Under the pieces are notes generated by a model. It saw only the letters and a list, made by a program, of their open reading frames with translations. It ran no database searches and was not told where the DNA came from. 64,000 nt of DNA from Candidatus Rokuibacteriota bacterium (GTDB lineage: Bacteria > Methylomirabilota > Methylomirabilia > Rokubacteriales > CSP1-6), in NCBI GenBank assembly GCA_003221695.1, contig QHSX01000038.1, positions 186,001 through 250,000 of the forward strand. The letters are read 5' to 3'. Both the position numbers and the translations under genes were made by a program. Positions 5,048 through 19,123 of this stretch are shown here, piece after piece (the stretch's first letter is position 1; each line of letters starts with the position of its first letter).

Positions 5048-5764
5048 TCAGGGGTGAGCCTCCGCGTCCACGAGCAGGGTGCACCGGGGGTGCAGCCGGA
5101 GCGCCGAGGCTGGCACGGCGGGCTCGACGGGACCGTCGAGGACCCGTGCCAGCGGCACGCGCTTGGCGCGGCCGCTGACGAGCACGACGACCTCGCGCGC
5201 CTCGAGGATCGTCCCGATGCCGAGGGTGACGGCGCGGTCGCTGACCGCGCCCTGGAGGACCTCGTCGGTCAGGATGTAGCCCACGGTCTCGGGGGTGAGA
5301 TCCACGGGTCGGGTGCGGGAGTCGAAGTCGCTACCGGGCTCGTTCGAGGCGATGTGCGCGTTCGGCCCGAGCCCCAGCATGACAAGGTCGAGGCCACCGG
5401 CGCGCTTGATCGCCTCCTCGTACTCGTCGCACATCGCGGCGAGGTCGGACGCGCCGACGTCGAACGGGCGGCAGCGCTCGGGCGGCACGCCCGCCCAGGC
5501 GAGGAACTCGCGCCACACCTGGCGCCAGAAGTACCCGTCGGCGGGCGCGGGTGGGCAGAGCTCGTCGACGGAGAAGACGCGCATGGCCCCGTAGGCGACG
5601 GGCTCGCGCGCCTGCCGGTCGCGCAGCCGCGCGTACATGCGCCGCGGCGTCCGCCCCGCGGGCACCGCCATCGCGAGGTCCGGTCTCGCGGCGAGGTGCT
5701 CGCGGAACATGGCCGCCGCGGCCTCGGCGAGCTCGGCCGCGTCGCGGAGGACGACGACCTGCAT
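5048..5764 (-). CDS. Glucosamine-6-phosphate deaminase / 6-phosphogluconolactonase family protein with altered catalytic Asp
   Basis: 238 aa. It has the NagB/SOL fold signatures PAGRTPRRMY (phosphate loop, about 36-44), FSVDEL (D67-E68) and the block GLGPNAHIASNEPGSDFDSR (131-150). NagB normally reads GPDGHIAFNEP; here the Asp of the DGH triad is Asn135 and the Gly is Ala, while His137 and Glu142 are kept. The deaminase or lactonase chemistry may therefore be changed or lost. The ATG lies 2 nt after the stop of the upstream selenoprotein gene, so the pair forms one operon. The fold is certain. The reaction is not. Confidence 0.75.
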   Translation of the reverse strand: MQVVVLRDAAELAEAAAAMFREHLAARPDLAMAVPAGRTPRRMYARLRDRQAREPVAYGAMRVFSVDELCPPAPADGYFWRQVWREFLAWAGVPPERCRPFDVGASDLAAMCDEYEEAIKRAGGLDLVMLGLGPNAHIASNEPGSDFDSRTRPVDLTPETVGYILTDEVLQGAVSDRAVTLGIGTILEAREVVVLVSGRAKRVPLARVLDGPVEPAVPASALRLHPRCTLLVDAEAHP

Positions 5765-5766
5765 CC

Positions 5767-6129
5767 CTAGGTCGAGACGACCTTGTCGGCCGCCGCCACT
5801 TTCTCGGCGAAGACCTTGGGCGTGACGAACTGCGCGTTCAGGGACTTGAGGTCCTGCTCCGTGACCCCACGGGCCACCGAGCAGCGGCCTCAGACCCAGA
5901 CGGGCACGCGGTGCTCGACGACCTTGCGGATCATCTCGGCGAGCGGTGGCATACCGACCGGGAGCACCGCGCTCGCGATCTCCTGCTTCACGAGATAGGC
6001 GGCCTCGCCGGCGATGAAGATCTCCGGCGCGTGGCCCGCCTCGACGGCCCCCAGCGCGAAATTGAACGGGAACCCGGCGCGCGTCGGATCGTCGCTGCCC
6101 GAAGTCCCCACGTACAGGATCCTGGCCAT
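5767..6129 (-). CDS. DsrE-family selenoprotein (in-frame TGA read as selenocysteine)
   Basis: 120 residues from the ATG at 6129 (GGAGGAG SD upstream) to the TAG at 5767-5769, with an in-frame TGA at 5890-5892. Residues 1-79 are a DsrE/DsrF-like domain: MARILYVGTSGSDDPTRAGF, then FALGAVEAGHAPEIFIAGEA, then VEHRVPVWV. At this point Cys-containing DsrE homologs have a CxxC-like cysteine (V-x-V-C-G-x-C). Here the sequence is V-TGA-G-R-C, so Sec80-x2-Cys83. The 40 codons after the TGA continue sensibly (CSVARGVTEQDLKSLNAQFV). A SECIS-like hairpin follows the TGA, and the next gene starts 2 nt after the distal TAG. DsrE-like proteins handle sulfur or thiol-redox chemistry in the cytoplasm. A conventional caller would end this gene at the TGA. 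Confidence 0.82.
5854..5884 (-). promoter_or_regulatory. Bacterial SECIS-like hairpin
   Basis: On the minus strand, starting 5 nt after the TGA: CTGCTC (5884-5879), G, GTGGCCC (5877-5871), loop GTG (5870-5868), GGGTCAC (5867-5861), G, GAGCAG (5859-5854). This gives a 6-bp lower stem, a G-G mismatch, and a 7-bp upper stem with one G-U pair. The 3-nt apical loop has G first. The loop begins 20 nt after the TGA, inside the 16-37 nt window and with the loop-G rule described for bacterial SECIS elements. Confidence 0.75.
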
Positions 6130-6230
6130 GGCGTGCTCCTCCCCGGGCTCGTCTGCCCACCACAGCATATGCGAAGCCGTCGCGGTCGGGAACCGGTGCG
6201 CCCCCGCACGGGGTTGACTAGCGTGTCGGG

Positions 6231-9590: not shown

Positions 9591-9612
9591 CCGGCGAGAA
9601 TAGCGCGTGCGC

Positions 9613-9618
9613 TACACT
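9613..9618 (+). promoter_or_regulatory. -10-like TACACT before tupA
   Basis: TACACT lies 21 nt before the ATG at 9640, with AGGAGGAG between. The box overlaps codons 3-4 of an upstream in-frame GTG at 9607, which argues that the ATG is the true start. Confidence 0.4.
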
Positions 9619-9639
9619 CGGCACAGGAGGAGACTCGCG

Positions 9640-10473
9640 ATGGTCCTGCGTCTCGTGGTCGCCGCCCTCGTGCCGCTCATGCTCGCCGCGCCCGCGGGCG
9701 CGGGCTCGAACGTCGTCATCCTGTCGACGACGACGTCCACGCAGGACTCGGGGCTGCTCGACGTGCTGGTTCCGCTCTTCGAGCGCCGGACGGGCTACAC
9801 GCTGAAGACGATCTCGGTCGGCACGGGTCAGGCGCTCGCGCTCGCCGCGCGCGGGGAAGCGGACGTCGTGCTCTGCCACGCGCCGTCACTGGAGAAGCGC
9901 TCCCTCGCCGATGGCACGCTGACGAATCGCCGGCTCGTCATGTACAACGACTTCGTGCTCGTCGGCCCCGAGGCGGATCCGGCGAGGATCGCCGGAGACA
10001 AGAGCGTGGTCGCCGCGCTCGGCAGGATCGCCGCCGCGGGCGCCCGCTTCGTGTCGCGCGGTGACAAGTCGGGGACCCACACCGTCGAGCTCGCCCTCTG
10101 GAAGGTGGCGGGCGTCACGCCCGCCGCGCCCTGGTACATCGAGTCGGGCCAGGGCATGGGCGCGACGCTGGGCCTCGCCGACGACCGTCGGGCGTACACG
10201 CTGACGGACCGCGCGACGCTCTCCGCCTTCGGCAAGCGCGTCGCGCTCCGGGTCATGGTCGAGGGCGACCGGCCGCTGCGCAACGTCTACTCGGTGCTGG
10301 AGGCCAACCCCGCGAACGGCCCGCGCGTCAACGCGGCGGGCGGCCGGGCCTTCGCCGACTTCATCGTGTCGCCCGAGGTCCAGCAGGTCATCCGCACCTT
10401 CGGCGTCGACCGATACGGCCAGCCGCTGTTCGTCCCGATTGCCGGCCAGCGCGAGGAGGAGGTGGCGCCATGA
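9640..10473 (+). CDS. tupA: Tungstate ABC transporter substrate-binding protein
   Basis: 277 aa from the ATG at 9640 (AGGAGGAG SD; the in-frame GTG at 9607 lies inside the promoter). The signal peptide spans about 1-21. Mature TupA begins with the diagnostic ILSTTTSTQDSGLLDVLVPL that forms the oxyanion pocket. It continues with VGTGQALALAARGEADVVLC, FVSRGDKSGTHTVE, and a GMGATLGLADDRRAYTLTDR block. TupA binds tungstate very tightly in the periplasm and delivers it to TupBC. Its last 4 nt overlap tupB. Tungstate uptake implies tungsto- or molybdo-pterin enzymes elsewhere in the genome. Confidence 0.93.
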   Translation: MVLRLVVAALVPLMLAAPAGAGSNVVILSTTTSTQDSGLLDVLVPLFERRTGYTLKTISVGTGQALALAARGEADVVLCHAPSLEKRSLADGTLTNRRLVMYNDFVLVGPEADPARIAGDKSVVAALGRIAAAGARFVSRGDKSGTHTVELALWKVAGVTPAAPWYIESGQGMGATLGLADDRRAYTLTDRATLSAFGKRVALRVMVEGDRPLRNVYSVLEANPANGPRVNAAGGRAFADFIVSPEVQQVIRTFGVDRYGQPLFVPIAGQREEEVAP

Positions 10474-11165
10474 CCCTGCTGCTCGACGGGGTGCGCGCGG
10501 CGACCGGGCTGATCGTGAGCGGCGATAGTGAGATCTGGTCGATCCTCTGGCTCTCGCTCCAGGTCTCGGGGAGCGCGACGCTGATCGCGTTGCTGCTCGG
10601 CGTTCCTGCCGGAACGGCGCTCGCCCTCGCGCGCTTTCCGGGGCGCGGGCTCGTCGTGAGCGCCGTGAATTCGGGAATGGGGCTGCCGCCAGTCGTCGTC
10701 GGCCTCTTCGTCACGATCCTCCTCTGGCGGAGCGGCCCGCTCGGCGCGCTCGAGATCCTCTACACGCCCGCGGCGATCGTGGTCGCGCAGGCCGTCATCG
10801 CCGCGCCGATCGTCACCGGGATCACGCTGGCCGCCGTCCAGCAGGTGCCGCGGGAGTTCCGCCTCCAGCTCCTGGCCCTCGGCGCCTCGCGCGTCCAGAT
10901 GATCTGGGTGGTGCTCCGCGAGGCGCGGCTACCGATGCTCGCCGCCGTGATGGCGGGGTTCGGCGGCGTCATCTCCGAGATCGGCGCCTCGATGATGGTC
11001 GGCGGCAACATCAAGGGGCAGACGCGCACGCTCACGACCGCGATGGTGCTCGAAACCAGCAAGGGCAACTTCGAGGCGGCGATCGCGCTCTCGCTCCTCC
11101 TGCTGGTCCTCGTCTTCCTCGTCAACTGGGCGCTCACCTCGATCCAGCAGCGCCGGGCCCTCTAG
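10470..11165 (+). CDS. tupB: Tungstate ABC transporter permease
   Basis: 231 aa, inner-membrane permease of the CysTW/ModB type. About five to six helices are seen. The conserved cytoplasmic EAA loop, LQLLALGASRVQMIWVVLRE, contacts the ATPase. GGVISEIGASMMVGGNIKGQ is a TupB/WtpB-typical segment. The ATG at 10470 overlaps the tupA stop (ATGA). No ATPase follows directly. The best matching one lies five genes on at 13739, after modABC, so the two transporters share one transcription unit. Confidence 0.92.
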   Translation: MTLLLDGVRAATGLIVSGDSEIWSILWLSLQVSGSATLIALLLGVPAGTALALARFPGRGLVVSAVNSGMGLPPVVVGLFVTILLWRSGPLGALEILYTPAAIVVAQAVIAAPIVTGITLAAVQQVPREFRLQLLALGASRVQMIWVVLREARLPMLAAVMAGFGGVISEIGASMMVGGNIKGQTRTLTTAMVLETSKGNFEAAIALSLLLLVLVFLVNWALTSIQQRRAL

Positions 11166-11177
11166 GGAGTGAGCCTG

Positions 11178-11183
11178 TAAGAT
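11178..11183 (+). promoter_or_regulatory. -10-like TAAGAT before modA
   Basis: TAAGAT ends 6 nt before the GTG start of modA and no SD is present. This suggests that modA can be transcribed as a leaderless message inside the longer tup-mod unit. Confidence 0.45.
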
Positions 11184-11189
11184 AGGGGC

Positions 11190-11960
11190 GTGATCCGGCG
11201 CTCGCTCTCCCCGGCTCTGGTCCTCGCGTGGCTCGCCCTCGGGTCCGGCGGGGCGCCCGCCGCCGAGCCGCCGTCGCTGACGGTCTTCGCCGCCGCCGAC
11301 CTCGCGTTCGCGTTCCGAGAGATCGTGCCACGCTTCGAGAAGGCGCTGGGCGTGCGGGTCACGCTGGTGCTCGGCTCGACGGGCCAGCTCGCCCAGCAGA
11401 TCGAGCACGGCGCTCCCGCCGACGTCTTCTTCGCCGCCGACCAGACCTTCGTGGATCGCCTCGTGGCCGAGCGTGCGCTCCTTGGCGAGACGCGGGCGCT
11501 GTACGCGCAGGGCCGACTCGTGCTCGCCACGCCGAAGACGTTCGCGCCGAAGCTGACGGAGCTCCGGCGCCTGACCGACCCGAGCGTCCGGCGCGTGGCG
11601 ATCGCGAACCCGGCGCATGCGCCCTACGGGCGCGCGGCCGAAGAGGCCCTCAGGAAGACGGGGGTCTGGGAGGCCATCAGGCCCAAGCTCGTCTACGGCG
11701 AGAACATCCGGCACACGCTCCAGTTTCTCCAGACGGCGGCGGTCGATGCCGGCATCGTCGCGCTGTCCGTCGCGAACGTCCCGGAAATCGACTGGGTGGC
11801 GATCGACCCGGGCCTCCACGCGCCGCTCAACCAGGCGGCCGCGGTGGTGCGGCGGAGCGCGCGGCCCGAGGTCGGGCTGGCGTTCATCCAGTTCGTGAAC
11901 GGGCCGGAGGGGCGCCCGATCATGAAACGTCACGGGTTCCGGCTGCCCGGGGAGTTCTGA
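11190..11960 (+). CDS. modA: Molybdate ABC transporter periplasmic binding protein
   Basis: 256 aa with a GTG start at 11190 and a signal peptide to about residue 25. It has the ModA hallmarks TVFAAADLAFAFREI (oxyanion Ser/Ala region), VTLVLGSTGQLAQQIEHGAPADVFFAADQ and VRRVAIANPAHAPYGRAAEEAL. Further along come ENIRHTLQFLQTAAVDAGIVALS and the closing GRPIMKRHGFRLP. It captures molybdate (or tungstate) and hands it to ModB. It is separated by 24 nt from tupB and 7 nt from modB. The start has a -10-like hexamer 6 nt upstream. Confidence 0.93.
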   Translation: MIRRSLSPALVLAWLALGSGGAPAAEPPSLTVFAAADLAFAFREIVPRFEKALGVRVTLVLGSTGQLAQQIEHGAPADVFFAADQTFVDRLVAERALLGETRALYAQGRLVLATPKTFAPKLTELRRLTDPSVRRVAIANPAHAPYGRAAEEALRKTGVWEAIRPKLVYGENIRHTLQFLQTAAVDAGIVALSVANVPEIDWVAIDPGLHAPLNQAAAVVRRSARPEVGLAFIQFVNGPEGRPIMKRHGFRLPGEF

Positions 11961-11967
11961 TCCGAGC

Positions 11968-12621
11968 ATGGACCTGTTTCCCGTCTGGCTCTCGCTCCGC
12001 GTCGCCCTGACGGCGACGGCGCTCACACTCCTGATCGGCATCCCCGTCGCCCTCCTGCTGGCCCGTCGGCGCTTTCCAGGGCGCAACGTGCTCGAGGCGG
12101 CCGTCGTCCTGCCGCTGGTCCTGCCACCGACCGTCCTCGGCTACTACCTGCTCCTCGTCATCGGGAACCGTGGCCCCGTCGGGCGGGCGCTGGCCGCGCT
12201 CGGCGTCGAGCTCGCCTTCACGTGGGGCGCGGCGGTGCTCGCGGCGTGCGTCGGCTCGATCGCGCTCGTGATCAAGTCGGCCCAGGCGGGCTTCGAGTCC
12301 GTCGACCGGCAGCTTGAGCAGGCCGCACGGACCCTCGGGCGCTCCGAGTGGTCGGTCTTCTGGAGCGTGACCCTGCCGCTCGCGTGGCGTTCGGTGCTCG
12401 CCGGCGGCGTGCTGGCCTTCTGCCGGGCGCTGGGCGAGTTCGGGATCACGCTGATGGTGGCGGGGAACATCCCGGGCCGGACGCAGACCCTACCGCTCGC
12501 GATCTACGACCGCGTGCAGGCCGCGCAGATGGACGAGGCGAACGCGCTCGCGCTGATCGCCGTCGCCGCCGTCGTGGTGCTGCTCTTCGGCTTGAGCCGG
12601 CTGGCCCGGCTCCGCTACTGA
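11968..12621 (+). CDS. modB: Molybdate ABC transporter permease
   Basis: 217 aa inner-membrane permease with about five helices. Typical ModB features are LPPTVLGYYLLLVIGNRGPVG, the EAA loop QLEQAARTLGRSEWSVFWSV, and FCRALGEFGITLMVAGNIPG, followed by RTQTLPLAIYDRVQA. It forms the transmembrane channel of the ModABC importer. Its TGA overlaps the modC ATG by one base, so translation is coupled. Confidence 0.94.
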   Translation: MDLFPVWLSLRVALTATALTLLIGIPVALLLARRRFPGRNVLEAAVVLPLVLPPTVLGYYLLLVIGNRGPVGRALAALGVELAFTWGAAVLAACVGSIALVIKSAQAGFESVDRQLEQAARTLGRSEWSVFWSVTLPLAWRSVLAGGVLAFCRALGEFGITLMVAGNIPGRTQTLPLAIYDRVQAAQMDEANALALIAVAAVVVLLFGLSRLARLRY

Positions 12622-13739
12622 TGGTCGCGGTCGAGCTGGTCAAGCGATACCCTGGCTTCACGCTCGACGTGCGCTGGCGCGCCGAGACGTCCGTCGTCGG
12701 GCTCTTCGGCCCCTCGGGCGCCGGGAAGACGCTGACCCTCCAGTGCCTCGCGGGACTGATCCGTCCGGATGCGGGGCGGATCGTGGTGGGCGAGCGCGTG
12801 TTCTTCGACGCTGCCGCGGGGATCGACCTGCCGCCTCAGCAGCGGCGCATCGGTTATGTCTTCCAGGGCTACGCGCTCTTCCCGCATCTCACGGTCGAGG
12901 AGAACATCGGATTCGGGCTCTCCGACCGCTCGCGCGGCGAGCGCGCCCGACGCAGCGCCGAAGTCATCGAGCGCCTTGGCCTGGGGGGCTTCGAGCGTCG
13001 ATACCCGCGAGAACTTTCGGGCGGCCAGCGACAACGGGTCGCCCTCGGGCGCGCCCTCGCGATCGACCCGGCGCTCCTGCTGCTCGACGAGCCGCTGTCG
13101 GCGCTCGACGCGCCGCTCCGACGGACGCTGCGCGACGAGCTGCGCGAGACGCTCACGGGGTGGTCCACCCCCGCGGTCGTCGTCACGCACGACTTCACCG
13201 AGGCGTACCGTCTCGCCGATCGGATCGTGGTGTACGAGTCCGGGCGCGTCATCCAGTCGGCGCCGCGCGCCGAGCTCCTGTGGCAGCCCGCGTCGGAGAC
13301 GGTCGCGCGCATCATGAGCCTCAAGAACGTGCTGCGGGGCACGGTCGTCAAGGCGACGCCGGACCGCATCCAGATCAGCTGGCGCGGCCAGACGCTCGAG
13401 GCGGTGAACTCGCCGACGCGCTCCTACCTGCCGCCGCCCATGAGCCCGATCGCGTTCTTCATCCGCCCCGAGTACGTGCGGCTCATCCGCAAGGATCGCG
13501 GCGCGCCGGACCCGCAGCACCATATGAACCTCCTGTCGGGCCGGCTCGTCAGCGAGGCGGATTTCGGCACCGTGTGGACCCTCCGGCTCCGCCTCGACGC
13601 GCCGGGCGAGCCCGCGCAGGGCGCCTTCGACCTCGAGGTCGAGGTGCCGCACCTCGTCTACGAGATTCTCGAAATCGAGCGTGACCGCCACTGGCAGCTC
13701 TCGATCCACCGGGGCTCGATCCACGTGCTGCCCGCCTGA
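12621..13739 (+). CDS. modC: Molybdate ABC transporter ATP-binding protein
   Basis: 372 aa. Walker A GPSGAGKT lies at residues 30-37. The Q-loop is in YVFQGYALFPHLTVEENI. LSGGQRQRVALGRAL is the ABC signature, LLLLDEPLSALD is Walker B with catalytic Glu, and VVVTHDF carries the switch His. After about residue 240 comes a TOBE/Mop-like regulatory extension (IMSLKNVLRGTVVKATPDRI onward). It hydrolyses ATP to power ModB. The start overlaps the modB stop and the gene runs directly into the next ATPase gene by one base. Confidence 0.92.
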   Translation: MVAVELVKRYPGFTLDVRWRAETSVVGLFGPSGAGKTLTLQCLAGLIRPDAGRIVVGERVFFDAAAGIDLPPQQRRIGYVFQGYALFPHLTVEENIGFGLSDRSRGERARRSAEVIERLGLGGFERRYPRELSGGQRQRVALGRALAIDPALLLLDEPLSALDAPLRRTLRDELRETLTGWSTPAVVVTHDFTEAYRLADRIVVYESGRVIQSAPRAELLWQPASETVARIMSLKNVLRGTVVKATPDRIQISWRGQTLEAVNSPTRSYLPPPMSPIAFFIRPEYVRLIRKDRGAPDPQHHMNLLSGRLVSEADFGTVWTLRLRLDAPGEPAQGAFDLEVEVPHLVYEILEIERDRHWQLSIHRGSIHVLPA

Positions 13740-14884
13740 TGGCGCTCCCCGTCCTGGCGCTGGCGAACGTGCGCGTCGGCTATGGCGGGGCCGACGTGCT
13801 CGACGTCCCGTCGCTGGAGATCGCGGAGGGCGAGGTGCTCGCGGTGATCGGACCGAACGGGAGCGGCAAGTCCACGCTCCTGCGCGTGGCGGGGTTGCTC
13901 GAGCGGCCGACCACGGGCCGCGTGAGCTTCGGCGGGTGCCTGGTGGACGCGACCCATGCGCTCGCCGAGCGGCGCCGGATGGCGATGGTGTTCCAGCAAC
14001 CGCTCCTCGCCGACATGACGGTGGCCGAGAACGTCGGGCTCGGCCTGGCCTTCCGCGGCGTGGGCGCCGACCCGAGCGAAGCGCGGGTCAGCCGCTGGCT
14101 CGAGCGGCTCAACATTGCGCCGCTCCGGGACCGGCGCGCGCGGACGCTCTCGGGCGGCGAGGCGCAGCGCGTGGCCCTTGCGCGCGCGCTCGTGGTCGAG
14201 CCCGACCTCTTGTTGCTCGACGAGCCCTTCGCCGGCCTCGACGCACCCTCGCGGGAGGCGCTTCTGCCCGACCTCGCCGCGATCCTCCGTGGCGACCGGC
14301 TGACGACGATCCTCGTCTCCCACGACCGCGCCGAGGCCCAGGCCCTCGCCGACCGCGTGGCGGTCCTGATACGCGGCCGGATTTCCCAGCTCGACGAGAC
14401 CGCGCGCGTTTTCTACGCCCCCGTGTCGGAGGAGGTCGCGCGCTTCGTCGGCGTCGAGACGATCGTGACGGGCCGCGTGCTGGCCCGCGACGGCGGCGTC
14501 ACAGTGGTGGAGGTCGCGGGGCGCAAGCTCGAGATCGCCGCTCGGGGCCGGCCGGGGGACCTGGTGAGGCTCGGCATTCGCCCCGAGGACGTGACGCTCA
14601 CCCTGCCTACGGAGCACGCCCCCCTGTCGAGCGCGCGCAACCACCTCACGGGCACGATCAGGCACCTGGTCCCGTCCGCGCCGGCGACCCGGGTGGTCGT
14701 GGACGTGGGCTTTCCGCTCGTCGCCACGGTCACGGCGCGCTCGGCCGCCGATCTGGGCCTCGCCGAGGGGCTCCCGATCACCGCGGTCTTCAAGGCGAGC
14801 GCGGCCCACCTCATTGGTCCCGCGGGGAGCGCGGGCGGCTCTCCGGCGGGTTTGCTTGACACTATGACGGCTCCGGAGCTATAA
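13739..14884 (+). CDS. tupC: Second oxyanion ABC ATPase, probably the tungstate transporter ATPase
   Basis: 381 aa. Walker A GPNGSGKS lies at about residues 38-45, the signature is LSGGEAQRVALARAL, Walker B is LLLLDEPFAGLDA, and the H-loop is in TTILVSHDRAEAQ. The FQQPLLADMTVAENVGLGL Q-loop segment is typical of TupC/WtpC-like enzymes. The C-terminal third is a TOBE domain pair (TGRVLARDGGVTVVEVAGR; NHLTGTIRHLVPSAPATRV). TupAB upstream lacks a dedicated ATPase, so this one most likely completes TupABC; sharing with ModB is possible. A promoter for the next gene lies inside its 3' end. Confidence 0.8.
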   Translation: MALPVLALANVRVGYGGADVLDVPSLEIAEGEVLAVIGPNGSGKSTLLRVAGLLERPTTGRVSFGGCLVDATHALAERRRMAMVFQQPLLADMTVAENVGLGLAFRGVGADPSEARVSRWLERLNIAPLRDRRARTLSGGEAQRVALARALVVEPDLLLLDEPFAGLDAPSREALLPDLAAILRGDRLTTILVSHDRAEAQALADRVAVLIRGRISQLDETARVFYAPVSEEVARFVGVETIVTGRVLARDGGVTVVEVAGRKLEIAARGRPGDLVRLGIRPEDVTLTLPTEHAPLSSARNHLTGTIRHLVPSAPATRVVVDVGFPLVATVTARSAADLGLAEGLPITAVFKASAAHLIGPAGSAGGSPAGLLDTMTAPEL

Positions 14885-14936: not shown

Positions 14937-15164
14937 ATGGACCAGGAGACCCTCATCGAGCGATTGATGGCCGAGAACGAGGAGTTCCGGCGCCTCCGCG
15001 GCGAGCACCACGCCCACGATCAGGAGCTCGAGGCGCTCAGACGAACCGCCCCGCTCTCGGCCGACCAGCAATGGCGAATGAGCGAGCTGAAGAAGCTGAA
15101 ACTGATGGCCAAAGACCGGATGGAGGCAATCATCCGGCACGCTCGCTCCGGCGTCACGGCCTGA
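14937..15164 (+). CDS. DUF465 (YdcH-like) small helical protein
   Basis: 75 aa from the ATG at 14937, preceded by AAGGAGG. It is a helical hairpin of about 60 residues: ETLIERLMAENEEFRRLRGE, then a loop, then LSELKKLKLMAKDRMEAI-type repeats. The LKKLKL-KDRMEAI half is the characteristic DUF465/YdcH signature. The molecular role is unknown; members are small cytoplasmic coiled coils. It has its own promoter inside tupC, and its stop codon overlaps the likely moaC start. Confidence 0.8.
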   Translation: MDQETLIERLMAENEEFRRLRGEHHAHDQELEALRRTAPLSADQQWRMSELKKLKLMAKDRMEAIIRHARSGVTA

Positions 15165-15676
15165 CCAAGCCCCGCGCGGGCAAGGTCCGCGGCCTGTCCC
15201 ACCTGTCGCCGGCGGGCGCCGCGCGTATGGTGGACGTGTCCGAGAAGCGTGAGACCGTCCGTGCGGCGGTGGCACGGGCGGTCCTCAAGATGGCGCCCGC
15301 GACCCTGCGGGTGATCCGTCGCGGCAATGCGCCCAAGGGGGACGTGCTCGGCGTCGCCCGCACCGCCGGCATCCTCGCGGCCAAGCGTACCCCCCAGCTC
15401 ATCCCGCTCTGCCACCCGCTCCGCATCACCGGTGTGGACGTAAATTTCTCCGACGACCTCCGCCGCGGCGAACTCGCCGTCGAGGCGCGCGTGCTCACCG
15501 TGGACAAGACGGGCGTCGAGATGGAGGCGCTCACCGCGGTGAGCGTCGCGGCGCTGACCGTCTACGACATGATCAAGTCGGTCGAGAAGGGCGTGACGAT
15601 TGCGAAGGTCCAGCTCGTCGAGAAGACGGGCGGCAAGTCCGGCACGTGGCGGAGGGCGGGACGAAAGGCGACATGA
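15161..15676 (+). CDS. moaC: Cyclic pyranopterin monophosphate synthase MoaC
   Basis: About 171 aa if started at the CTG at 15161, which overlaps the preceding TGA (CTGA), as many ATGA/GTGA junctions here do. The only in-frame ATG upstream is at 15071, inside the DUF465 gene; the next ATG (15227) would cut conserved LSHLSPAGAAR sequence. Conserved MoaC blocks are RMVDVSEK, LIPLCHPLRITGVDV, DKTGVEMEALTAVSVAALT and YDMIKSVEKG. It converts the MoaA product into cyclic pyranopterin monophosphate for molybdenum/tungsten cofactor. It sits right behind the Mo/W uptake genes. Confidence 0.9.
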   Translation: MTKPRAGKVRGLSHLSPAGAARMVDVSEKRETVRAAVARAVLKMAPATLRVIRRGNAPKGDVLGVARTAGILAAKRTPQLIPLCHPLRITGVDVNFSDDLRRGELAVEARVLTVDKTGVEMEALTAVSVAALTVYDMIKSVEKGVTIAKVQLVEKTGGKSGTWRRAGRKAT

Positions 15677-15689
15677 TGGCCCCGCTCCA

Positions 15690-16817
15690 GTGAAGACCGC
15701 GCTCGTCTACTCGGACGCGTACGGGCGCTTCGACTACGGGCCCGAGCACCCGCTCAGGATGGAGCGGCTCGGCCTCACGTGGCGACTCATGCAGGCGTAC
15801 GGCCTCACGGCGCTGCCGAACGCGCGCGTGCACCTCCCCGAGCCCGCGACCGAGCAGGCGCTCGCGCTCTGGCACACGCGGGACTACCTCGACGTGCTCA
15901 AGGCGGCGAACGGCGGCACGGCCCCCGAGCACGCGGCCCGCTGCGGCCTCGGCCCGGGCGACAACCCGGTGTTCCCCGGGCTCTGGGACGCGGCGCGGCT
16001 CTGCGCGGGCGGCTCGCTGCTCGCCGCCGAGCTGGTCGCGAGCGGCAAGGCGACGCGCGCCTTCCACTTCGCCGGCGGCCTCCACCACGCGCTGCCTGGG
16101 CGCGCGTCGGGATTCTGCTACGTCAACGACGCGGTCCTCGCGATCCTCCACCTCAAGTCGCGCGGCCTCCGCGTCCTCTACGTGGACATCGACGCCCACC
16201 ACGGCGACGGTGTGCAGCACGCCTTCTACGAGGACCCGGAGGTCATGACCATCTCGACGCACGAGCGCGGCGATTACCTCTTCCCGGGGACCGGCTTCGT
16301 CGAGGAGCTGGGCACGGGCGCGGCCCTCGGCTATTCCGTGAACCTCCCGCTCGAGCCGTTCACCGACGCGTCCGTGTATCTCCCAGCGTTCGAGGAGGTC
16401 GTGCCACCGCTCGTCGGCGCGTTCAAGCCCGACGTCGTCGTCGCCCAGCTCGGCATCGACTCCCACCGAACCGACCCGCTCACGCACCTCGAGCTGGACG
16501 TCCAGGGGTTCGCGCGCGCGGTCGCGCGCATCGTGGAGCTCTCGCCCCGGCTCGTGGCGCTAGGCGGCGGCGGCTACGACCTGCCCAACGTGGCGCGCGC
16601 GTGGACCGCCGCGTGGGCGGCCATGAACGACGTCGAGCCCACGGCGGAGCTCCCGGTGTCTTTCGCCGAGGACGCTCGGCGTTACGGGTTCCGCGCGCCG
16701 ACCCTGTGGGACCCGCCGGAGCGGCCCGCGGGGGCGAAGCGCCTCCGCGCTGAGGCGTACGTGCAGCGGCAGATCGAGGCGATCCGCCGCCTCATCTTCC
16801 CGATCCACCACCTGTAG
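15690..16817 (+). CDS. acuC: AcuC-type class I histone deacetylase-like hydrolase
   Basis: 375 aa from the GTG at 15690 (MKTALVYSDAYGRFDYGPEH). Catalytic core in order: GGLHHALPGRASGFCYVND (His-His pair), VLYVDIDAHHGDGVQHAFYE (zinc Asp/His), ISTHERGDYLFPGTG, QLGIDSHRTDPLTHL (zinc Asp) and GGGGYDLPNVARAW (Tyr). AcuC-like proteins are zinc amidohydrolases that deacetylate protein lysines, such as acetyl-CoA synthetase, or small acetyl-polyamines. All key residues are present. Its last 26 nt overlap the 3' end of the convergent SCO gene. Confidence 0.9.
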   Translation: MKTALVYSDAYGRFDYGPEHPLRMERLGLTWRLMQAYGLTALPNARVHLPEPATEQALALWHTRDYLDVLKAANGGTAPEHAARCGLGPGDNPVFPGLWDAARLCAGGSLLAAELVASGKATRAFHFAGGLHHALPGRASGFCYVNDAVLAILHLKSRGLRVLYVDIDAHHGDGVQHAFYEDPEVMTISTHERGDYLFPGTGFVEELGTGAALGYSVNLPLEPFTDASVYLPAFEEVVPPLVGAFKPDVVVAQLGIDSHRTDPLTHLELDVQGFARAVARIVELSPRLVALGGGGYDLPNVARAWTAAWAAMNDVEPTAELPVSFAEDARRYGFRAPTLWDPPERPAGAKRLRAEAYVQRQIEAIRRLIFPIHHL

Positions 16818-17541
16818 CGCCAGACGCGTCCTCCATGAGGAGCGTTTCGATGTCGTTGAGCACCGTTCGCGGGTGGAGGAAGGTGGACGTGTAAATCTCC
16901 CGGATGAAGCCCGCAGCGTCGATCAAGAACAGCTTGAGCACGTGCGAGAGCTCCCGCCGCGGCTTCCCGTTCGACCGGTCGATCGTGTAGCGGATGTCCT
17001 GGCCGAAGCCTTCGACCAGCGGCATGAGCTCCTGCACCGAGCCCGTCGTGAGGAAATACCAACGCAATCCGCGACCTTCGTCGCGCACGCGGCTGCCGGC
17101 ATACCGACGCATGATCACCGGCGTGTCGCGCGCCGGATCGAACGACAGTGTCACGAACCGCACCTTGTCGCTCAAGGCGGGGGTGGCCTCGATCGCCGCC
17201 TTCATCGCATCGAACACGCGGTACGCAAGCGGGCAGCCGTCGGGATCGACGCACGTGGTGTAGACGAACCCGAGCAGCGTGATGCGGTCGCGCGTGAACT
17301 GAGAGAGCCGCCGGCTGCGCCCGTCGATGCCCAGCACCGCCCCGTCCGGCGCCGCCATGATCCGGTGCAACGTGTAGCTCCCAGGCGGCGGGGGATCGAA
17401 GTTGAGTGCGGGAAGCGGCGCTCCCGCATGCGTGGACGCAGGGCTCGCCCAGACGAGCCATGCGAGAAGCACGGCCGCGCGCGCATGCTGGCGCAGCCTG
17501 GCCGCCGCGGGGGGAATGGCGCGACGGCCTCTGCCCCTCAC
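16792..17541 (-). CDS. SCO1/SenC-like periplasmic copper/thiol protein
   Basis: 249 aa. The N-terminal hydrophobic segment at about 21-40 is a signal peptide or anchor. The thioredoxin-like core starts near residue 70. The cysteine motif is TTCVDPDGCP, so C97-x5-C103 rather than the usual CxxxC of SCO1, and H200 (ELSHVLKLFLID) matches the third copper ligand. It lies 10 nt downstream of the methanethiol oxidase gene. Published mtoX loci carry a SCO1/SenC gene beside mtoX, where it probably delivers copper. Convergent with acuC, overlapping by 26 nt. Confidence 0.8.
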   Translation of the reverse strand: MRGRGRRAIPPAAARLRQHARAAVLLAWLVWASPASTHAGAPLPALNFDPPPPGSYTLHRIMAAPDGAVLGIDGRSRRLSQFTRDRITLLGFVYTTCVDPDGCPLAYRVFDAMKAAIEATPALSDKVRFVTLSFDPARDTPVIMRRYAGSRVRDEGRGLRWYFLTTGSVQELMPLVEGFGQDIRYTIDRSNGKPRRELSHVLKLFLIDAAGFIREIYTSTFLHPRTVLNDIETLLMEDASGATGGGSGR

Positions 17542-17551
17542 GGTGACGTGC

Positions 17552-18886
17552 TCAACGCCGCGCGAGCCGCTCGAGCCCCGCCGCGTCGGCCGCCGCGCTG
17601 CGCAGCGCCTTCGAGCCGAGCTTCATGTGATGGGCGCGGCCGAGCTTCTCCTTCGTGAAATCCACCGCGAAGACCTGTTTGAGCCCCTTGCCGTCCCACC
17701 TGAAGCCGCGCAGGAACTGCTCGTTGTCCGCACCGACCTTGTCCCAGTTCGCCAGCAAAGACGAGGTGATGTAGACGCGCTTGCCGTCCCAGCTCTGCGA
17801 GATCATGTTGACCTGTTTGCCGGTGACCTTCGCGTAGGTCTGCTTGGGCGCTTCCGGGTTGCTCAGATCGAAGTAGCGCGTGGTGCCGTCCATGAACGTG
17901 TTGACCCACAGCCCCTTGCCGTCACGGGTGATGCTGATGTCGACGGGCAGCGGGACCTTCGCTGGATCGCCGATCGTCGCCACATCCTTCGCCTGCCACT
18001 CCCCCTTGCCGTCCTGCTTGAGGAGCCAGATCTTGGACGTGAGCGCGGTCGCGGTCACGGCCCAGTTGTGCCCGGGGTTGAGCGACCAGCGGATCTCCAG
18101 CGGCGCGCCGGGCACACTGAGAATCTTCTTCGGCTTGATGGCCTTCAGGTCCCACACGACCATGGTGTTACCGAAGCGCTTCATCGCCTCCGCGTCCTTC
18201 ACGAGGTCCCAGAGCGACCGCATGTAGTTCGTGTAGCCGGTGAAGCTCGACGTGAGCAGCACGTTCTTCTTCGGGTTGACCGCGAGATCGTAGCCGTAGC
18301 CGTCGCCGCCGCCGTCGGTCGGCATCTTGTAGGTGGCGATGAACTCGCCCTTGTTGTTGTAGAGCGCCATGCCGGTAACGCCGCTCTTGTCTTGGGTGTT
18401 CGAGAGCGCCTGCACCAGCATCCGTCCGGGGAGGGCATAGTAGGTGTGTGGGCCGAGGTAGCCGGTCTTGTCGGCCAGGTCGGCGATCGTCTGAACGAGC
18501 TTGGGCTTCGCCGGGTCGGTGGCGATGTCGAAGACGTAGATCTTGGCCTCCGAGAGCCCGCCCGCCCAGATGAAGCGCCGGTCGTCGGTGAAGCCCATGT
18601 GGTGAGCCTCGCCTCGGGATCCGACCGACACGGAAGCGATCACCTTCCCGTAGCTCTTCGACTTCGGGTGCACGTCCACGGTCACCAGCTTGTCGGAGCC
18701 GTCGCCGAGCCCCTCGACGCCCAGGGCCCACACGTAGACGTAGTCTTCCTGACCCTTGATGAGCTTGGCGGTGTAGGGCGAGTTGCAGGTCTCGTCGGCG
18801 CGGACCGGGCCGGCGTCGACCGTGCACATCAGGGCGACCCAGAGAGCCGCCAGAATGCCCGAACGCATCATGCGATGAGAGATCAT
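17552..18886 (-). CDS. mtoX: SBP56-family methanethiol oxidase (periplasmic)
   Basis: 444 aa from the ATG at 18886 (SD GGAAGGAGAG). A signal peptide of about 30 residues ends GPVRADE. The mature protein is a seven-bladed propeller of the selenium-binding protein 56 family: TCNSPYTAKLIKGQEDYVYV, VTVDVHPKSKSYGKVIASV, RGEAHHMGF, LGPHTYYALPGRMLVQALSN, GYDLAVNPKKNVLLTSSFTG, WSLNPGHNWAV and a closing RAHHMKLGS. Bacterial members oxidise methanethiol to formaldehyde, H2S and H2O2 using copper. No TGA/Sec is present in this protein. With the SCO gene it forms a two-gene operon reading away from 19124. Confidence 0.87.
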   Translation of the reverse strand: MISHRMMRSGILAALWVALMCTVDAGPVRADETCNSPYTAKLIKGQEDYVYVWALGVEGLGDGSDKLVTVDVHPKSKSYGKVIASVSVGSRGEAHHMGFTDDRRFIWAGGLSEAKIYVFDIATDPAKPKLVQTIADLADKTGYLGPHTYYALPGRMLVQALSNTQDKSGVTGMALYNNKGEFIATYKMPTDGGGDGYGYDLAVNPKKNVLLTSSFTGYTNYMRSLWDLVKDAEAMKRFGNTMVVWDLKAIKPKKILSVPGAPLEIRWSLNPGHNWAVTATALTSKIWLLKQDGKGEWQAKDVATIGDPAKVPLPVDISITRDGKGLWVNTFMDGTTRYFDLSNPEAPKQTYAKVTGKQVNMISQSWDGKRVYITSSLLANWDKVGADNEQFLRGFRWDGKGLKQVFAVDFTKEKLGRAHHMKLGSKALRSAAADAAGLERLARR

Positions 18887-19123
18887 GAGACTCTCCTTCC
18901 CCTTAGGGATGCGGCGGCTCAGCCGCACCGCCCTGCGCGTACCGGCCTGCCCTTGTTGCTGACTGGCCGGACCCTACCACACGCGTGTAGTCCCGGCAAC
19001 GCGCGTCGGGCCAGAGTGCAGTTGAACCGGCCAGTCGATTTGCAGATAATCGCACCACTCGAAGGTCGCCTCGGCGTCTCGTCCGCACGATTCCCAGGTT
19101 TGCGACGCGGGGAGGAGATCACG
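18887..19123. promoter_or_regulatory. Divergent control region between mtoX and the solute-binding protein gene
   Basis: 237 nt without a gene. Toward the plus strand there is a good promoter at 19022-19050. Toward mtoX there is a TTGCCG / 17 nt / TAGGGT arrangement, about 18973-19001 on the minus strand. The palindrome ACACGCGTGT at 18979-18988 sits in its spacer and could be an operator. The mtoX leader carries its SD at about 18890-18900. Confidence 0.45.
19022..19050 (+). promoter_or_regulatory. Promoter of the 19124 solute-binding protein gene
   Basis: TTGAAC (19022-19027), 17-nt spacer, GATAAT (19045-19050). Both boxes are close to sigma70 consensus with ideal spacing. The leader to the ATG at 19124 is about 67 nt and holds GGGGAGGAG as SD. 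Confidence 0.55.

Follow-up and report, generated by a model that had tools for sequence, protein, structure and literature searches.

The cysteine of TusD and DsrE has an established role as a sulfur carrier, and both proteins act in heterohexamers, TusBCD and DsrEFH. Family members with selenocysteine (Sec) are also on record. DsrE-like selenoproteins were reported from the Sargasso Sea in 2005 (PMC1088965), DsrE 1 and DsrE 2 from the GOS in 2008 (PMC2398784), and a DsrE-like selenoprotein in Desulfovibrio vulgaris (PMC1794560). PMC13188914 has a review table in which DsrE-like selenoproteins appear as UxxC with one Sec only, and a metagenome-assembled genome (MAG) of Methylomirabilota with 63 predicted selenoproteins.

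Here we consider a stretch of 64,000 nucleotides (the window) from an uncultured soil organism, a Candidatus Rokuibacteriota bacterium of the phylum Methylomirabilota, in which a sequence-only reading had proposed a DsrE-family selenoprotein. That reading mentioned an earlier DsrE-like group from marine metagenomes, and the literature agrees (PMC1088965; PMC2398784). It also held that the presence of such a gene in this GC-rich diderm looked new. This point is weaker: the finding is unsurprising in Methylomirabilota because MAGs there are reported with up to 63 selenoprotein genes (PMC13188914). DsrE-like UxxC selenoproteins are already catalogued; a set of double-Sec relatives is the less expected part. 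The window protein shares with the known ones the PF02635 domain, a single Sec, the UxxC motif and a bacterial SECIS just past the UGA. Unlike them it is terrestrial (Methylomirabilota/Rokubacteria), the comparison with DsrE 1 and DsrE 2 being by description. It puts on firm ground a terrestrial example of a family so far met mostly in marine metagenomes and in sulfate reducers, and it comes from a phylum that is now regarded as rich in selenoproteins.

The gene, its product and its host

The features of the coding region are as follows.

5767..6129, minus strand: selenoprotein gene of dsrE-like type, 120 codons followed by TAG (TGA translated as Sec; Pfam DsrE; orthologs)
5890..5892, minus strand: in-frame UGA, codon 80, read as Sec (UxxC alignment, Cys homologs, YchN Cys78)
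5770..5889, minus strand: 40 codons downstream of the UGA, whose three helices and two strands complete the DsrE fold (pN/pS, AlphaFold2)
5048..5764, minus strand: NagB/glucosamine-6-phosphate deaminase-like gene (Pfam Glucosamine_iso, PF01182, 9.5e-26), starting 2 nt after the dsrE stop

We regard the gene at 6129-5767 on the minus strand as almost certainly a true selenoprotein gene whose product has the DsrE/TusD fold and would be a UxxC redox or sulfur carrier with a hairpin-directed Sec80. Genomic comparison establishes, at the level of sequence, the gene and its UGA, the Sec machinery, the exchange of Sec for Cys, and selection on both the hairpin codons and the C-terminus. The sequence-only reading did not give the strand. 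On the minus strand the gene runs from ATG (6129-6127) through TGA (5892-5890) to TAG (5769-5767), and its motif is U80-G-R-C83 in the product MARILYVGTSGSDDPTRAG...VPVWV-U-GRC-SVARGVTEQDL...ADKVVST. The Pfam DsrE match (PF02635) covers residues 3-119, across the UGA, with E = 1.2e-15 and 58.2 bits against a curated cut-off of 22.7; the profile search found no NCBIfam model for the product. All 40 codons described as open past the TGA are sense codons, and the gap sizes given for the two stops are right: after the TAG come GG and the NagB-like ATG (5764-5762), so that the distal stop lies 2 nt from the next start, and a stop at the TGA would lie 125 nt from it.

The AlphaFold2 model has a mean pLDDT of 96.6, with 93-97 in the C-terminal blocks, and residues 81-120 supply the domain with three helices and two strands. 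The best solved matches (Foldseek) are E. coli YchN (1jx7), TusD (2d1p), Allochromatium DsrE in DsrEFH (2hy5) and a Sulfolobus DsrE/F-like protein (3mc3). All four have the fold of the window protein (TM-scores 0.71-0.82), but they differ from it in having Cys instead of Sec and are only about 13-21% identical. Sec80 aligns with Cys78 of YchN. In the model it would lie where a beta-strand ends, in the reactive-Cys place of YchN, TusD and DsrE, with Cys83 one helical turn on in the following helix, and a selenenylsulfide cycle between the two residues may be envisaged. The window protein is most likely a small cytoplasmic carrier, working in thiol/selenol redox reactions or with sulfur (persulfide), as judged from fold and motif. 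Unlike TusD and DsrE, it is encoded without adjacent hexamer partners: neither DsrF/DsrH nor TusB/TusC was found next to the dsrE-like gene, which is surrounded by the NagB-like gene, an aldehyde dehydrogenase gene and other, unrelated ones. The gene neighbourhoods of the orthologs point to no substrate.

The sequence-only reading proposed searching the genome for selA, selB, selC and selD, and held that lack of a selB/selC system would speak against Sec. All four are present. selB (C52:14578-16461) scores 373 bits against a cut-off of 242, with selA (TIGR00474, 588 bits) directly upstream; tRNA-Sec (C52:11779-11872) scores 69.8 bits against 47 and has the anticodon TCA (UCA in RNA). selD (C35:113035-113976; 337 bits, over cut-off) has an in-frame TGA of its own, in YATCAGUASKMAPG, where U is TGA. 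Within Methylomirabilota, selB is over cut-off in 83/95 genomes; four with a UGA-dsrE have no strong selB match (G010, G034, G067 and G086, two of them 63-77% and two 95% complete). In a comparison where all but one record of the UGA-gene genomes lay outside the window's phylum, selB was over cut-off in 17/19 of these and in 12/23 Cys-gene genomes (Fisher p = 0.017).

Close orthologs, 86-96% identical, occur in Candidatus Rokubacteria/Rokuibacteriota MAGs, and the UGA and the C-terminal 40 codons are kept in 16/16 ortholog sequences compared (about 16 related species). The pN/pS ratio is 0.288 before the UGA, 0.267 after it and 0.206 beyond the hairpin; by this measure purifying selection is as strong past the UGA as ahead of it. 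We found 109 distinct family members: 46 UxxC, 45 CxxC and 18 UxxU. In a position-by-position comparison, UGA stands in 45/45 UxxC sequences and a Cys codon at the same place in the 45 CxxC homologs, which agrees with the placing of the TGA at the DsrE Cys site (Sec80-x2-Cys83). The Cys homologs (mostly CGAC) are from Acidobacteriota, Verrucomicrobiota, Bacteroidota and some Pseudomonadota and have the same full C-terminus. Aligning them across the TGA had been suggested, with homologs ending there as the adverse outcome; they have Cys at the site and run on past it. Those of Acidobacteriota and Verrucomicrobiota resemble the window protein in length, ARGV and C-terminus (about 41-50% identity), but differ from it in the Cys and in hairpin codons that are not under selection. 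A search of plasmids gave only DsrE proteins about 31% identical.

Two relatives are irregular. In a Rokubacterial MAG (L090:5001-5356) the dsrE frame is broken in its N-terminal part, the match falling in two frames, by a frameshift or an assembly error. A short contig of an Acidobacteria MAG (L084) carries a Rokubacterial-type UGKC dsrE, probably through a binning error or transfer.

The SECIS hairpin and readings of the UGA

The RNA after the UGA contains two stems.

5861..5877, minus strand: SECIS upper hairpin, 7-bp stem GUGGCCC/GGGUCAC with core CCC-GUG-GGG (fold, pairing counts, synonymous-codon test)
5854..5884, minus strand: arms of the lower 6-bp stem, 5879-5884 with 5854-5859 (fold; not conserved in the family)

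The bacterial SECIS rules given in PMC13188914 are a loop of 3-9 nt with G in the first two positions, an upper stem of 4-16 bp, a distance of 16-37 nt from the UGA and a minimum free energy (MFE) of at most -7.5 kcal/mol. The window hairpin agrees with these rules in its 3-nt GUG loop, 7-bp stem, 19 nt and -25.5 kcal/mol, the last being the MFE of the 43-nt stretch. The loop (5868-5870) starts 20 nt after the UGA, with 19 nt between. Folded from the TGA, the RNA has an MFE of -32.2 kcal/mol (z = -3.8 against dinucleotide shuffles) and takes the form that the sequence-only reading had described and proposed to check by folding: a lower 6-bp stem beginning 5 nt after the TGA, a 7-bp upper stem and a G-led 3-nt loop. 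In the family, only the upper part of that description is borne out. Paired cells in the upper stem amount to 98% in orthologs (14 distinct sequences), 88% in all UxxC and 45% in CxxC genes; for the lower stem the values are 63%, 52% and 48%. The lower stem was accordingly rejected as part of the conserved SECIS, and the element is smaller than first described.

Since the orthologs show no variation at most pairs of the upper stem, covariation is not decisive as proof, and for this reason we used, as the strongest test, a comparison of codons for the same peptide, Ala-Arg-Gly-Val, which lies 6-9 codons after the site in UGA and Cys proteins alike. It is spelled GCC-CGK-GGG-GTN in 38/40 UGA genes and in 0/29 Cys genes (Fisher p = 7e-16, computed with 1/29 where the exact count is 0/29), and the hairpin, compared with synonymous versions recoded at random by local codon usage, has a mean z of -2.14 in UxxC and 0.07 in CxxC genes (difference p = 9e-13), both p-values being overstated because related sequences are not independent. 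This spelling is the core of the SECIS hairpin, CCC-GKG-GGG, and on the codon evidence the hairpin codons are selected in UGA genes only. The same core is also present across Rokubacteria, Myxococcota/"Deltaproteobacteria", Acidobacteriota and Chloroflexota; a few UGA genes (L045, L046, L146, L153) fit the hairpin poorly. Comparing this one peptide between genes that have a UGA and genes that lack it amounts to a natural experiment on the requirements of a bacterial SECIS, in which the CCC/GGG core and G-led loop are held and the lower stem drifts.

From machinery and hairpin together we infer that SelB, bound to the downstream hairpin (core CCC-GUG-GGG, loop 20 nt away), would bring Sec-tRNA-Sec(UCA) to codon 80, after which translation would run on through the 40 codons.

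Other accounts of the UGA meet these same data. A standard gene caller would stop at the UGA (ORF 5890..6168, 92 aa), and long chance ORFs are plentiful in the window, so one might take the protein to end there at 79 residues, with the downstream frame a chance product of a GC-rich genome. We consider this very improbable, given that purifying selection is equal before and after the UGA, that the Pfam match and predicted fold span it and that the Cys homologs run through. MAGs do carry errors, and the broken dsrE frame of the related L090 could lend some colour to a pseudogene mutation or sequencing error; such an event has hardly any chance of explaining a UGA found at the same codon in 16/16 orthologs compared and in the UGA genes of other phyla. 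A variant code reading UGA as Trp or Gly without a SECIS is formally possible for any in-frame UGA, and no tool result supports it. It is just as remote as an error, since homologs have Cys at the site, neither Trp nor Gly, the Sec machinery is complete, including a selD that itself contains UGA, and hairpin selection is limited to UGA genes. Chance ORF, pseudogene or assembly error, and alternative code were thus rejected on selection, orthologs, Cys homologs, machinery and hairpin codons, in favor of Sec insertion.

Relatives with two UGA codons

In 18 distinct Methylomirabilota relatives a second UGA occupies the Cys83 position (UGGU or UTGU). They are still DsrE by Pfam.

UGGU loci: L035-L039, L041, L042, L044, L157-L161, L164, L174, L176
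Other, divergent UxxU loci: L034, L069

The double-Sec motif is V/L-U-G-G-U, with the UGA codons 9 nt apart, and the genomes that have it include one of Methylomirabilis type in a single contig (G045). Parsimony requires three changes of the UxxU label, pointing to about three origins, on a tree from a short alignment in which 43/103 branches are well supported.

The main UxxU clade retains the first core (CCC-GKG-GGG), whose loop lies about 20 nt past the first UGA, and has an apparent second hairpin, GGTCTT-GGAYG-AAGACC, with a loop that begins 20 nt beyond the second UGA. The second hairpin is present in 15/18 UxxU, 1/46 UxxC and 0/45 CxxC genes; L034 and L069 have a different one, whose loop lies 26-27 nt beyond the second UGA. 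Across 17 UGGU genes the hairpin-2 codons GGG, GTC, TTG and GAA are invariant wherever the residue is kept, as against 0/42 four- or six-fold codons in the upstream comparison. Synonymous shuffling gives hairpin 2 modest support per gene (8/18 UxxU genes at p < 0.05); it is codon invariance and spacing that carry the case.

Because both main-clade hairpins share GGGGT, they cannot coexist. Being mutually exclusive, they suggest that a ribosome moving on 9 nt would open hairpin 1 and so switch the RNA to hairpin 2. We give about an even chance to the idea that each UGA has its own SECIS, the overlapping, exclusive hairpins forming a stepwise signal for double Sec. On a rival reading, both UGAs depend on hairpin 2 alone, the loop of which lies 29 and 20 nt from them, both within the SECIS rules; the retained hairpin 1 codons would then call for another reason. 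These relatives would make it testable how one mRNA directs two Sec codons 9 nt apart.

Two Sec three residues apart are also found in the UxxU selenoproteins Prx-like 2 of the GOS (PMC2398784) and the metal-binding protein NF041115 (PMC13188914). These belong to families other than DsrE, and the available parts of the two papers do not describe a two-hairpin arrangement. The literature searched contained no mention of UxxU DsrE proteins or paired overlapping SECIS, which does not prove their absence from the literature as a whole; neither DsrE nor UxxU comes up in the text of the deep-Sep paper.

Two arrangements of these genes may be recorded. In Methylomirabilis-type genomes a UGGU dsrE is followed on the same strand by a quinone-oxidoreductase-like zinc dehydrogenase gene (L165:6676-7644, minus strand; L166:7365-8333, plus strand). 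At L157 (G019:C164, 1-6000) about 1.8 kb separates a double-Sec from a single-Sec dsrE, and a cysteine-desulfurase-like gene (Aminotran_5) follows about 1.4 kb beyond the two, a gene set suggestive of a sulfur/selenium role.

The NagB-like neighbor and the rest of the window

The NagB-like gene reaches none of the NCBIfam cut-offs (nagB: 138 bits, cut-off 236.9; pgl: 61.5 bits, cut-off 124.45). At the deaminase active-site segment (Asp-Gly-His...Asn-Glu-Pro), GLGPNAHIASNEPG aligns with GIGPDGHIAFNEPG; His and Glu are kept and Asp is replaced by Asn, which also stands at the deaminase Asp place in the solved chain 2bkv. To the sequence-only reading, the pairing of this gene with the selenoprotein gene looked new. 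The adjacency is real, the NagB-like gene coming directly after dsrE in seven species (G000, G001, G002, G003, G006, G027, G034). It is limited to these seven related species, and NagB as obligate partner was rejected on that count. One could still suppose that the two proteins form a dedicated pair, for instance in amino-sugar metabolism or, given the nearby aldehyde dehydrogenase, in aldehyde metabolism, and the 2-nt or overlapping spacing in the seven species would suit this. We think it unlikely: the NagB-like gene is away from dsrE in 24 of the 31 genomes that possess one, and the gene next to other orthologs codes for an alpha/beta hydrolase, a cupin protein, a LysR regulator or, on the opposite strand, an aldehyde dehydrogenase. 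The pairing is probably incidental and, being real but local, says little about function.

Elsewhere in the window, an SBP56 selenium-binding protein/methanethiol-oxidase-like gene (17552-18928, minus strand; PF05694, E = 2.9e-45) has an SCO1/SenC gene (16792-17541) next to it and is about 12 kb away from dsrE. The regions 9607-14884 and 15071-15676 (plus strand) hold two molybdate/tungstate-type ABC transporter gene sets followed by moaC, fitting a molybdo- or tungsto-enzyme economy.
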